Positions 21,336 to 25,409 of a DNA stretch of 46,962 bases are shown in pieces. The stretch comes from an uncultured Candidatus Poseidoniales archaeon (GTDB lineage Archaea; Thermoplasmatota; Poseidoniia; Poseidoniales; Thalassarchaeaceae). The position numbers were made by a program, and so were the translations under genes. Numbering within the stretch: the stretch's first letter is position 1; each line of letters opens with the position of its first letter. The notes under the pieces are model-generated. The model made no database searches, was not told where the DNA came from, and worked only from the letters and a program-made list of their open reading frames with translations. The DNA lies in NCBI GenBank assembly GCA_902511005.1, contig CABXDN010000009.1, forward strand, positions 1-46,962, in the 5' to 3' direction.

Positions 21336-22352
21336 TTATCTTTTCTCAAAAAGATTAATCAAACTCTGACAACGAGATTTGGAATCTAAGCCAGTAATCC
21401 TTAGGACAACTCCTTGATCAGGTTGACCGTATAGTATGGCTGTATTCATTGGAGCCAGTAAATGTAATAAAAGAGGCGATAAATCTTCTTCACCATCAAC
21501 TATGATTAGAGTCTTGAGGCGATTGATAGTCCAATTATCAATAGCGATTTTACAAGATTCGAATAATGAACTAGTTAGCATACCAGGAGGGTTCTGGCAT
21601 TCAATTACACAATCATATAATGATTGATCTATTTCACTAAATCCTTCCCATACCACACGCTTTGTTTTTTCATCTATTAGAGCAATATTAGCAATATTAT
21701 CTACATCCTGTAATGATTTTACGGTTACGTCACCGACTCCAATTATTGGAGAATTATTTTCTACGATTGAATCTAATGCTTTTTTTATAGCAATAGAATG
21801 ATCAGATTCAGGGCCCTTGAATAAAGTACCAAAAGGTTCTTTCAATAGAATTTCAGCATCTTTAGTTATATGAATATCAGATGAGAATAGGTTTTCATCA
21901 AACCAGTTATTACCAAAAATATCGATGACCCCTTTTCTTATCCTAGTACTAGAAATTATTTTCCCATCTCTAGAAAAAACATGTGGCACCTCAATAATCT
22001 CTAATTCATCTAAATTCCCCATAACTCTAATTTCATTAATTTTGAGGCAATTATGCATAGTTTCACTTGTGCAAAAAATTGTTGATGCATCAACATGGTA
22101 ACTTGCAGCACCGAATTCATCTACTAATTCGTGAAATGTGACTCTAGAATTATCATTATCGGAAAGATTTGATTTGATATTATCGCATCTTTTTTCCCAA
22201 GATTGAACTCGTAAATCTTTCTTCTTGGCAATATTGTCTGAAACAATCCATATCTCTAAATTATTACAATGGGAAAGACCCGTTTCAATCAATTTTCGAT
22301 GACCTATGTGGAAGAATTCGAATGTCCCTCCCACGAGTCCGAGGCTCTCCAT
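21336..22352 (-). CDS. coaD: Fusion of phosphopantetheine adenylyltransferase and GTP-dependent dephospho-CoA kinase
   Basis: Residues 1-155 are an archaeal PPAT: LGLVGGTFEFFHIGHRKL with the H15-x-G-H18 nucleotidyl-transferase motif and a ISSTRIRKG block at 133-141. Residues 171-330 match the DUF359 dephospho-CoA kinase: GVGDVTVKSL, IALIDEKTKR, IIVDGEEDL and ILYGQPDQGVV. One polypeptide would thus turn 4'-phosphopantetheine into dephospho-CoA with ATP and then into CoA with GTP, the last two steps of CoA synthesis. I chose the ATG at 22352, preceded by GGAGAG, over the one seven codons upstream at 22373. It is convergent with the Orc1-linked membrane gene, seven bases away. Confidence 0.88.
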   Translation of the reverse strand: MESLGLVGGTFEFFHIGHRKLIETGLSHCNNLEIWIVSDNIAKKKDLRVQSWEKRCDNIKSNLSDNDNSRVTFHELVDEFGAASYHVDASTIFCTSETMHNCLKINEIRVMGNLDELEIIEVPHVFSRDGKIISSTRIRKGVIDIFGNNWFDENLFSSDIHITKDAEILLKEPFGTLFKGPESDHSIAIKKALDSIVENNSPIIGVGDVTVKSLQDVDNIANIALIDEKTKRVVWEGFSEIDQSLYDCVIECQNPPGMLTSSLFESCKIAIDNWTINRLKTLIIVDGEEDLSPLLLHLLAPMNTAILYGQPDQGVVLRITGLDSKSRCQSLINLFEKR

Positions 22353-22384
22353 TGACTCTCCAACTATACACATATGACTTGAGA

Positions 22385-22740
22385 ACTACGGAAGTAAAGT
22401 GTGCCCCGGAGTGTAACGGAGCCTTTCACTGCACTTTCATGCTCTGACTCCTGACCCCACCCCAGGACGTATGTTGGATTGTGGGGTAGTCCCTAGAATC
22501 ATCCCTTTCGGTCAACAGGGGACCTTACACAATCCATACCGTCTGTATTGCGCCAGAGGTCATCCTGAAAGGAATAATCTCTTCAATTATTACACAATAA
22601 GTCACTCTGGTCTTCGACAGACGGAGACCCATATCTGTGGTACCGAGTTTCATCCTATTACCTCCGGCTGGGGGTTTTGTCAACTCGGTGTTGCCAGTTG
22701 GGCAGGTTTATGTGACCAACTCCCATTGAATAACTCATCG
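22385..22740. ncRNA. Candidate structured non-coding RNA of unknown class (strand not settled)
   Basis: This gap of about 400 bases is far GC-richer than its surroundings and carries several perfect nested or adjacent helices. They are GGATTGTG (22476-22483) with CACAATCC (22528-22535), CCGTCTGT (22539-22546) with ACAGACGG (22617-22624), inner CCAGAG/CTCTGG (22553-22558 and 22605-22610), ACCGAGTT (22642-22649) with AACTCGGT (22682-22689), and AGTTGG/CCAACT (22696-22701 and 22716-22721). An AT-rich stretch with a TATA-like palindrome AATAATATTATT (22758-22769) flanks the right side, which favours minus-strand transcription towards coaD. I found no SRP (GGAAGG..GCAGC), RNase P (GAGGAAAGTCC) or 5S signatures on either strand. 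Confidence 0.5.
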
Positions 22741-22778
22741 TTTCATTAAAAATCAAAAATAATATTATTAAATTCTAA

Positions 22779-25409
22779 TTATAGATTTATTGAAGCCATA
22801 TTTTCTGAGAAACCAGTCTTCCTAGAAAGTAATCTTTCGCCAATCTCTGCATTCCCATCAAAGGCCGCCTTTGGAGATATATCTGGCCATTTATTTAGAG
22901 GTTGAGCAAGCCAACCAGAAAGAAGATGTGTTCTACCAGGATTTGGAGGAACATTTCGAATTGAAGATTCAATTGCATCCAAAAGATCTAACAGAGAATT
23001 TGCTGATTCAGGTAGCCCCTTTCTTTCTTGCCGCCTTCTGAGTTTACGAATTAATAGAGAATGAATTTCTGGATTAAATCCGGGGTGTGAAAAATCTCCA
23101 AGACCAGGTGCATTGCCTAATTCACCAGACGGTCTCAATACAAGTGCAATCCAGGGTTTAGGATTTGTTAACAACCATTCAGTTAGAGAATCATCATTTA
23201 GGAATCTTAAAAGTATTTCAGAGGATAAATGTGCCCACCAATCATAAGGTAACCTCTCGATTATTAGATTGATTTCTTCATAATTCAATTCTTTATTCTC
23301 AATTGTATGGCTAACTAATGTCGACCAAATCTTAAGATCATGATTACTGGACAAATGTTGACCTTTGAGTAAAATTCTTTTTATTACTTCAGGAAATTCA
23401 TCATTTTGGCCTCTTTGAGTAGAATATAACCAAGAAACTCCCTTAAGTGCATTAAGAGAATTTTTAGGTGGAGATGCTAACCAAGCTTGTAATGACCATT
23501 CGGTTAAATCATCATGTAAATAGTCAGGAATCCAAGCAGCATTTGCTAGGAATTGTGCAGCTACCCAAGCAGTGCCACTAGAGGCATCGATGGAATCCAC
23601 TGCAGGTCTAGTCCGAATTATCGTCTCTCGCTCTTCTCTTATTTTTCTCTCTAATTTTTCTGCAAAATAATCAAGTATTTCTTCGGTGGCCTCATCAGCA
23701 AGTTCAGCTAGTTTATCAAGAGGGATATGGTCGATATCGAATAAAATTAACCATTCTACTGAGATTCTATTTTTCAGACGTTGCCATCTAGGCCATCTGG
23801 TATGCTTGGGAGATGCTATCCATGCGGCAATTGGATATCGGGATTCCATTTGATTAGCCCATTCTTCATTACCACTGGGGAATTGCGAAATAGCAGAGTG
23901 GACCATAGAAAGATATCCTGACTCTAGTTCTTCAGATTCATATTCATGAAAACTACTAATTCCAAGTATTCCCCAAGGAGTTATTTCTTTAGGAATTAAA
24001 CTATCACTAATTGGTAAGTTATTAGGTATATTATTTACCAACTTTAATGGAATTATCTCTCCGGAAGATGTTTGAAGTCTTAACCACGGCAAAGGTCTTA
24101 GATAGTCAGGGTAAAGAAGATTCAAAGAATTTGTTGATGATGAGATATTATCTTTGATAAGTACTCTCAGCTTTGGATGTATAATTGCTAATGATTGTAT
24201 CTCACTAGATATATCATCATCAAGCTCTAAGACCAATGGTGGCCTCTCATCTGAAGATATAACCCAACTAACTAACGATTCTACCGCATATTTACCTAAA
24301 CCTCTGATATCAAGCTTCCTTATTGATTCTTCATCGGTTGTGAATATTGTATTACTCCAGTCTCTTCTAAACTTACGCCAAGTAGAATCATCCGTTCGAA
24401 CTTTCCTTGTGGACATTATTCGATCGCTTAATGATTGTACTCTTTTCTTTAATTCAGATTTAGGTAACCTAGGGTGAGCTTTCATTATCCAAAACTTAAG
24501 AGCAGATAGAGGATAATGGTCACTTTCAAGATTTAATCCGCCTAAATCTGCAATAATTAGGGAATTAATCCGAGCAGTCCTTAGAAGCATTGTTTTTGAT
24601 AGGCTATCTGGTAGAATGGCAATTAAAGGTACTTTCGGCCTTATTTCTTGACTGAGTTCATGGCATTCCCCCAATGTCCATTCTCCTCGATGAAATGTAT
24701 TTTCGTTCAATGGTGGATTTTGTCTAACCTTAGGCAAGTCAAACCAGGTCCCTATGGTCATCGCAATCGGATTCTTTACATCTATCAAACTAGCTCTAAT
24801 TATCCCAATAATTGACCTTTGAGAAGAATATGTTTCAATTTTTTCTGGATCATTTGAAAGAGAAGGAGGAGATGTAGGAGTCATTGATTGCAAGTCGAAC
24901 CATCGGGGATTCCTTTCTTTGAAAATAGCCCAGTTCCACCTTACCCCTTCATTTCCAATGGAATCAGGATTGATAATATCAAGTTGAGGTGGCCTATCAG
25001 GAATTAATATCATAGGGGACTTTGGAATTGAAGATAATCCAATCAATATGTTACTTCCATCTTTGTCTAAGATACAGAACTTATCTATTTCAGAAGGCAA
25101 AGGTAGGGCCTCAATTGCTCGAGATCTCTCATCAGAACGAATTCTATCCCAACCTAAATCTGTCAAATGTAAATATGCGCCACGGCTCCCTGCAGTTAAG
25201 TCACTAGAGACTAGTCCATCGTTTCTGAGTCTTCTTAATTCAGCTGATGCATGAGGGATTTGGAGTCCTATATCTCTAGCTAAAGAACTGACGGTCTCTC
25301 CACCTTCAGATAGTCTATTCAAAAGTCTTCTACGATATCGACTACGTATCTTAGTAGGTGTGGAAATAAAACTGGGAACTGTATCAAAACTGCTACCTTC
25401 TGACACCAA
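22779..25409 (-). CDS. Large protein with N-terminal winged-helix domain, unknown function
   Basis: An 876-residue soluble protein. Residues 20-85 form a clear ArsR/MarR-like winged helix: YRRRLLNRLSEGGETVSSLA, HASAELRRLRNDGLV, and a wing followed by YLHLTDLGWDRI. The remainder, about 790 residues, has no motif I recognise. It is Trp- and Leu-rich with repeated 'W..W' and 'P...W' phrases towards the C-terminus, and one helical segment (residues about 570-610, rich in Glu/Arg) could be coiled-coil. No membrane segments or ATPase motifs were seen. The start at 25409 faces a 250-base regulatory-looking gap. Confidence 0.78.
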   Translation of the reverse strand: MVSEGSSFDTVPSFISTPTKIRSRYRRRLLNRLSEGGETVSSLARDIGLQIPHASAELRRLRNDGLVSSDLTAGSRGAYLHLTDLGWDRIRSDERSRAIEALPLPSEIDKFCILDKDGSNILIGLSSIPKSPMILIPDRPPQLDIINPDSIGNEGVRWNWAIFKERNPRWFDLQSMTPTSPPSLSNDPEKIETYSSQRSIIGIIRASLIDVKNPIAMTIGTWFDLPKVRQNPPLNENTFHRGEWTLGECHELSQEIRPKVPLIAILPDSLSKTMLLRTARINSLIIADLGGLNLESDHYPLSALKFWIMKAHPRLPKSELKKRVQSLSDRIMSTRKVRTDDSTWRKFRRDWSNTIFTTDEESIRKLDIRGLGKYAVESLVSWVISSDERPPLVLELDDDISSEIQSLAIIHPKLRVLIKDNISSSTNSLNLLYPDYLRPLPWLRLQTSSGEIIPLKLVNNIPNNLPISDSLIPKEITPWGILGISSFHEYESEELESGYLSMVHSAISQFPSGNEEWANQMESRYPIAAWIASPKHTRWPRWQRLKNRISVEWLILFDIDHIPLDKLAELADEATEEILDYFAEKLERKIREERETIIRTRPAVDSIDASSGTAWVAAQFLANAAWIPDYLHDDLTEWSLQAWLASPPKNSLNALKGVSWLYSTQRGQNDEFPEVIKRILLKGQHLSSNHDLKIWSTLVSHTIENKELNYEEINLIIERLPYDWWAHLSSEILLRFLNDDSLTEWLLTNPKPWIALVLRPSGELGNAPGLGDFSHPGFNPEIHSLLIRKLRRRQERKGLPESANSLLDLLDAIESSIRNVPPNPGRTHLLSGWLAQPLNKWPDISPKAAFDGNAEIGERLLSRKTGFSENMASINL

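Follow-up and report, generated by a model that had tools for sequence, protein, structure and literature searches.

The locus and its neighbors

The window analyzed here is a stretch of 46,962 nucleotides from an uncultured Candidatus Poseidoniales archaeon. At 22385-22740 it contains a gap between a winged-helix gene and a coaD-like gene, both on the minus strand, with a G+C content of approximately 0.48 to 0.50 versus 0.30 to 0.42 in the surroundings, in agreement with the GC-rich gap in AT-rich DNA described in an earlier note on this sequence. The features of the locus, in the direction of the minus strand, are as follows.

22779-25409, minus strand: winged-helix (WH) gene, Pfam HTH_5
22722-22740, minus strand: conserved element CGATGAGTTATTCAATGGG, probable promoter, about 20 to 40 nt upstream of hairpin 1 and conserved in relatives
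22397-22703, minus strand: H/ACA guide RNA gene with four tandem hairpins, the reading favored here
22471-22749, plus strand: open reading frame of 92 amino acids, overlapping the gap
21336-22373, minus strand: coaD-like gene, Pfam CTP_transf_like and DUF359

The coaD-like gene encodes a protein in which a cytidylyltransferase-like domain (PF01467) is fused to DUF359 (PF04019), and we take the latter to be a family of archaeal GTP-dependent dephospho-CoA kinases. The fusion probably carries out two consecutive steps of CoA biosynthesis within a single chain. The plus-strand open reading frame is not needed to account for the conservation of the gap, which tracks RNA pairing.

Comparative evidence for a conserved structured RNA

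When the gap was folded as a single sequence, its energy was no better than that of shuffled sequences on the plus strand (z = -0.74) and no more than marginally better on the minus strand (z = -1.97); the structure rests on comparative evidence. The earlier note had proposed a search for compensating base changes in homologous gaps. Among 29 aligned family-level homologs (29 distinct minus-strand sequences), standard pairs accounted for 90.3% of the pair cells, and 31 of 66 pairs changed on both sides, compared to 7 to 15 in slid controls, these pair counts including some advantage for a structure drawn on the window sequence itself. The covariation score was 0.325 versus 0.155 in shuffles. 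The minus strand also holds the perfect helices that had been noticed in the gap, with lengths of 8, 8, 8, 6, 5, and 4 bp, the shortest being GGAG/CUCC. Comparative pairing and perfect helices together bear out the proposal of a highly structured RNA.

By DNA search, 30 of 60 genomes were found to contain the element, and all of these belong to the family of the window. Of 98 genomes from the order, 94, representing 19 of 19 genera, were matched by a covariance model built from hairpins 3 and 4 (R1); throughout the order the gene is present once, flanked by the winged-helix gene on one side and coaD on the other. In a sample of the phylum, R1 matched 93 of 243 genomes, 31 of them outside the order. 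Across 236 genomes from the phylum, a model of hairpin 1 (R2) matched 62, of which 61 lie within the order; the sole exception was marginal (25.7 bits). Hairpin 1 was not seen in the loci read outside the order, several of which have three hairpins (2-3-4), and at several of these three-hairpin loci hairpin 2 is followed by ACA. The RNA is found beside the same WH and coaD genes wherever the contig permits, and it is conserved in this fixed synteny although the flanking proteins diverge. In one relative (genome G080, locus L146), a stretch of N, flanked on both sides by a short repeat, interrupts the RNA gene and resembles a scaffolding gap.

Four kink-turn hairpins, two with ACA boxes

Kink-turns, ACA boxes, and complementarity to rRNA assign the RNA to the minus strand, directly upstream of coaD, as the earlier note had suggested. 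Its 5' end would lie near 22703-22709 and its 3' end about 3 nt past the last ACA. The hairpins are listed from 5' to 3', with predicted target uridines in 23S rRNA in Escherichia coli numbering.

22628-22702, minus strand: hairpin 1, short lower stem CCCA/UGGG, upper stem ACCGAGUU/AACUCGGU (8 bp), kink-turn at 22647-22684, no ACA
22690-22695 (GGCAAC) and 22639-22641 (ACC), minus strand: pocket of hairpin 1, predicted target U2606
22539-22624, minus strand: hairpin 2, lower stem CCGUCUGU/ACAGACGG (8 bp), upper stem CCAGAG/CUCUGG (6 bp), kink-turn, no ACA in the window
22612-22617 (UCGAAG) and 22548-22551 (GCAA), minus strand: pocket of hairpin 2, predicted target U2496
22472-22535, minus strand: hairpin 3, lower stem GGAUUGUG/CACAAUCC (8 bp), kink-turn, ACA box at 22472-22474
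22522-22527 (UAAGGU) and 22485-22490 (ACUACC), minus strand: pocket of hairpin 3, predicted target U2555
22400-22468, minus strand: hairpin 4, lower stem of 9 bp with 5' strand UCCUGGGGU and 3' strand ACUCCGGGG, kink-turn, ACA box at 22400-22402
22452-22457 (GGGUCA) and 22413-22417 (GUUAC), minus strand: pocket of hairpin 4, predicted target U1915 (U1922 in the organism's own rRNA)

All four hairpins share one plan: a lower stem, an internal-loop pocket, an upper stem of 7 to 8 nt with a terminal GA, a closing pair, and a 3-nt bulge with GA after it, i.e., a kink-turn. The GA, 3-nt bulge, and GA with their closing pair are conserved in each of the four, as in H/ACA hairpins. In productive archaeal H/ACA RNAs, pocket and kink-turn are separated by a GA stem of approximately 10 bp (PMC4652768). 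On visual inspection of the alignments, the upper stem of each hairpin together with its two G-A pairs comes close to this length, with one bulge in hairpin 4 and mismatches in hairpin 3 as irregularities. ACA is invariant at 15 nt in hairpin 4 and at 16 nt in hairpin 3, within the published range of 14 to 16 nt from the GA stem; these spacings were read from the alignment, and an automatic count over all loci, which used loose patterns, was set aside.

The upper stem of hairpin 3, GUCCC/GGGAC (5 bp), is invariant within the family of the window. In a second family it varies with compensation, as judged by eye, e.g., to CUCGUG/CACGAG and CUUGCC/GGUGAG.

Relation to the HgcG/Pab40 family

An Rfam covariance-model scan of 22330-22800, extended to E values of 10, returned no family at threshold and no match to SRP or RNase P RNA, and its best listed hit was a chance match (E = 6.3). 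The window RNA itself falls below the gathering cut-off of RF00064 (HgcG/Pab40; 77 bits) and is not reported. Relatives with three hairpins, found outside the order with the window RNA's own model, scored 92.7 (L147), 57.2 (L153), and 45.4 (L150) bits against RF00064, and a four-hairpin relative, L127, scored 20.2 bits. The search of relatives with RF00064 gave mostly noise, with one real weak match at the right place (genome G051, E = 8e-5). Since L147, from the same phylum, exceeds the cut-off while the window RNA does not, sequence comparison makes the window RNA a homolog of HgcG through a chain of relatives and not a member by cut-off. The possibility of a new class of noncoding RNA, raised in the earlier note, gives way to a homolog of HgcG/Pab40 within the well-known H/ACA class.

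Predicted rRNA targets and co-change with the guides

In a first scan, both pocket arms were compared with all uridines in the 16S and 23S rRNAs of ten relatives, allowing several pocket boundaries; a second scan with fixed boundaries compared the guides with permuted guides in six species. The rRNA set of genome G011 was excluded, as it looked like bacterial contamination: its rRNA genes at L053 and L082 look bacterial and probably reflect contamination of the bin. One best 23S site emerged for each hairpin. The best observed score was reached by 0 of 2,000 permuted guides for hairpins 4, 2, and 3 each and by 10 of 2,000 for hairpin 1, figures that are somewhat generous, given that pocket boundaries had been settled on once the alignment and the results of the first scan were known. 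Each pocket is complementary to a target of the form (5' arm)-U-N-(3' arm), most weakly in hairpin 1, whose 3'-guide duplex has just 3 bp, and in hairpin 3 of the window's genus. The numbering of the sites is anchored at A2503 and A2602, which we take to be the appropriate landmarks.

U1915 is situated in helix 69, U2496 at the peptidyl-transferase center, and U2555 in the A-loop. U1915 is a known archaeal site, occupied by pseudouridine in Haloarcula (PMC2584109). Yeast has pseudouridines at 2865, guided by snR46, and at 2975, guided by snR42 (PMC8307265), which would be equivalent to U2496 and U2606 if the correspondence of Um2921 with U2552 sets the offset (PMC8307265, PMC2584109); with the same offset, U2555 adjoins the equivalent of yeast 2923.

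For hairpin 3, taking GUCCC/GGGAC as the fixed stem above the pocket gave no convincing rRNA target, and the 8-nt stem boundary used for the other hairpins led to U2555. In several genera, the guide of this hairpin (ACAACCCC and AUGGGU) pairs with the site free of mismatches, and in the second family it is almost free of them. In the genus of the window, one arm has a U.U mismatch and the other just 3 bp, one of them G.U. Both arms are altered in the window and in L001-L019, L023, and L024, with AUGGGU replaced by forms ending in AGGU and ACAACC by ACUACC, while the rRNA site is unchanged. Considering the mismatch and the shortened arm, the hairpin 3 guide of this genus may be decaying or may have been retargeted. 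An equation of U2555 with Psi2672 of Pyrococcus abyssi, by way of the published correspondence of Pab U2669 with U2552, was dropped, as its offset is at odds with where Pa40.1-L2588 is placed.

The consensus guides of HgcG stems I and III pair with Thermococcus rRNA at the same uridines as hairpins 2 and 4. For stem I and hairpin 2, the Thermococcus rRNA reads CCUCGC with the guide GCGAGG, and the rRNA of the window's organism CUUCGA with UCGAAG. For stem III and hairpin 4, the respective sequences are UAACCC with GGGUUA and UGACCC with GGGUCA. When partners were swapped, the stem I guide lost pairs on the window's rRNA, and the window's guides lost pairs on Thermococcus rRNA. This co-change is direct comparative evidence that hairpins 2 and 4 act as guides, as predicted. 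L2588 was reported as a true, productive target of Pa40.1, and Pa40.3 targets L2016 (PMC4652768). The latter is the same position as U1915 (PMC2584109), and L2588 would be the same position as U2496.

Probable promoter and partner proteins

The conserved element CGATGAGTTATTCAATGGG is probably the promoter. A similar element, of the ACCGTTGGGTTCAT type, was recognized by eye before the RNase P RNA genes of relatives, at a comparable distance. In L031, L033, and L034, a motif of the form ACCG..GGGTTC(A/T)T precedes RNase P RNA by approximately 25 to 40 nt, and in L014-L017, L020, and L021 it precedes the window-type RNA. The motif does not have the form of a typical TATA box and may serve as a promoter specific to this lineage. 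The TATA-like palindrome put forward earlier as a minus-strand promoter does exist, at about 22754-22773, but is not conserved in relatives, and the minus-strand element at 22722-22740 is the better candidate.

Genes for Cbf5 were found in 25 of 25 genomes and for Nop10 in 23 of 25, the genome of the window included. To our knowledge, Gar1 and L7Ae are near-universal in archaea.

Discussion

We propose that 22397-22703 on the minus strand is the gene of an archaeal box H/ACA pseudouridylation guide RNA with four tandem hairpins, homologous to HgcG/Pab40 with an added fourth hairpin, and put the probability of this reading at about 94%. This conserved noncoding RNA very probably directs the formation of pseudouridine at bases in the catalytic center of the ribosome. 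It would be transcribed as a guide from the minus strand; L7Ae would bind the kink-turn of each hairpin, and Cbf5, Nop10, and Gar1 would assemble on each. Both sides of the internal loop are predicted to pair with 23S rRNA such that a single uridine stays unpaired at the foot of the upper stem; this uridine would be isomerized to pseudouridine. Predicted guidance of hairpin 3 to U2555 appears strong in relatives and weakened in the window's genus.

A narrower reading would have hairpins 3 and 4 alone form active RNPs, with hairpins 1 and 2 serving in assembly or stability. The invariance of ACA boxes in hairpins 3 and 4 only and the short 3'-guide duplex of hairpin 1 point in this direction. 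It nonetheless appears unlikely, given that hairpins 1 and 2, which have no ACA box in the window species, combine covarying stems with pockets that are kept in two families, and that the guide of hairpin 2 has changed together with its target. In the RNA as a whole, too, the stems covary and the guide pockets hardly change.

The earlier note had also considered a long structured leader, i.e., a riboswitch or regulatory element acting in cis in the 5' region of the coaD mRNA. The gene is on the same strand, its start is only about 25 nt from the end of the RNA, and the synteny is retained in the whole order. However, the last ACA box, in which the RNA terminates, precedes the coaD start, the pockets fit rRNA and not CoA metabolism, and outside the order the RNA was found with neither coaD nor a winged-helix gene detected in the short flanks. 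Together with the homology to HgcG and the similar element upstream of RNase P RNA genes, this makes a coaD leader very improbable. A divergent SRP, RNase P, or other housekeeping RNA, to which size and single-copy conservation might point, is refuted by the presence of RNase P RNA in 55 of 60 and SRP RNA in 51 of 60 relatives at other loci, by the Rfam scan of the gap, and by the match to HgcG, and the early exclusion of SRP and RNase P RNA was correct.

The H/ACA class is already known; what is new is four guide units in place of the usual one to three. According to a review, archaeal H/ACA RNAs mostly have one hairpin and rarely two or three (PMC7991803), and four are unusual by this measure. 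The four-hairpin guide RNA raises the question of how ACA-less hairpins function inside an array. It is conceivable, at somewhat less than even odds, that the four-module transcript, two of whose modules lack ACA, forms a single multi-enzyme particle that modifies helix 69, the A-loop, and the peptidyl-transferase region together, and that ACA-less modules are tethered by their neighbors, so that ACA would be dispensable in tandem arrays. The open-access literature searched did not yield any account of pseudouridine guides from this abundant marine lineage. Our results extend the HgcG family across the phylum, with an RNA that Rfam overlooks, and provide a case in which guide and rRNA have changed in concert over long evolutionary times.

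The closest known system is HgcG (Pab40, Pf7; RF00064), a three-hairpin H/ACA RNA of Thermococcales, whose stems I, II, and III correspond in order to hairpins 2, 3, and 4. Stem I shares the predicted target of hairpin 2 (the U2496 equivalent) and stem III that of hairpin 4 (the U1915 equivalent), and in both RNAs the last hairpin is terminated by ACA. The window RNA differs in its extra 5' hairpin, in having four hairpins with two ACA boxes instead of three hairpins each with ACA, in the loss of ACA from hairpin 2, and in the pocket of hairpin 3 (U2555). The H/ACA RNAs Afu-4 of Archaeoglobus and HP1/HP2 of Haloferax, likened here by description, likewise devote one hairpin to the equivalent of U1915 (PMC2584109, PMC4652768) but differ in hairpin number and partner targets. 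In yeast, the H/ACA snoRNAs snR46 and snR42 would guide the equivalents of the predicted targets U2496 and U2606; unlike the window RNA, they are eukaryotic two-hairpin RNAs without kink-turns, and the parallel is functional only.
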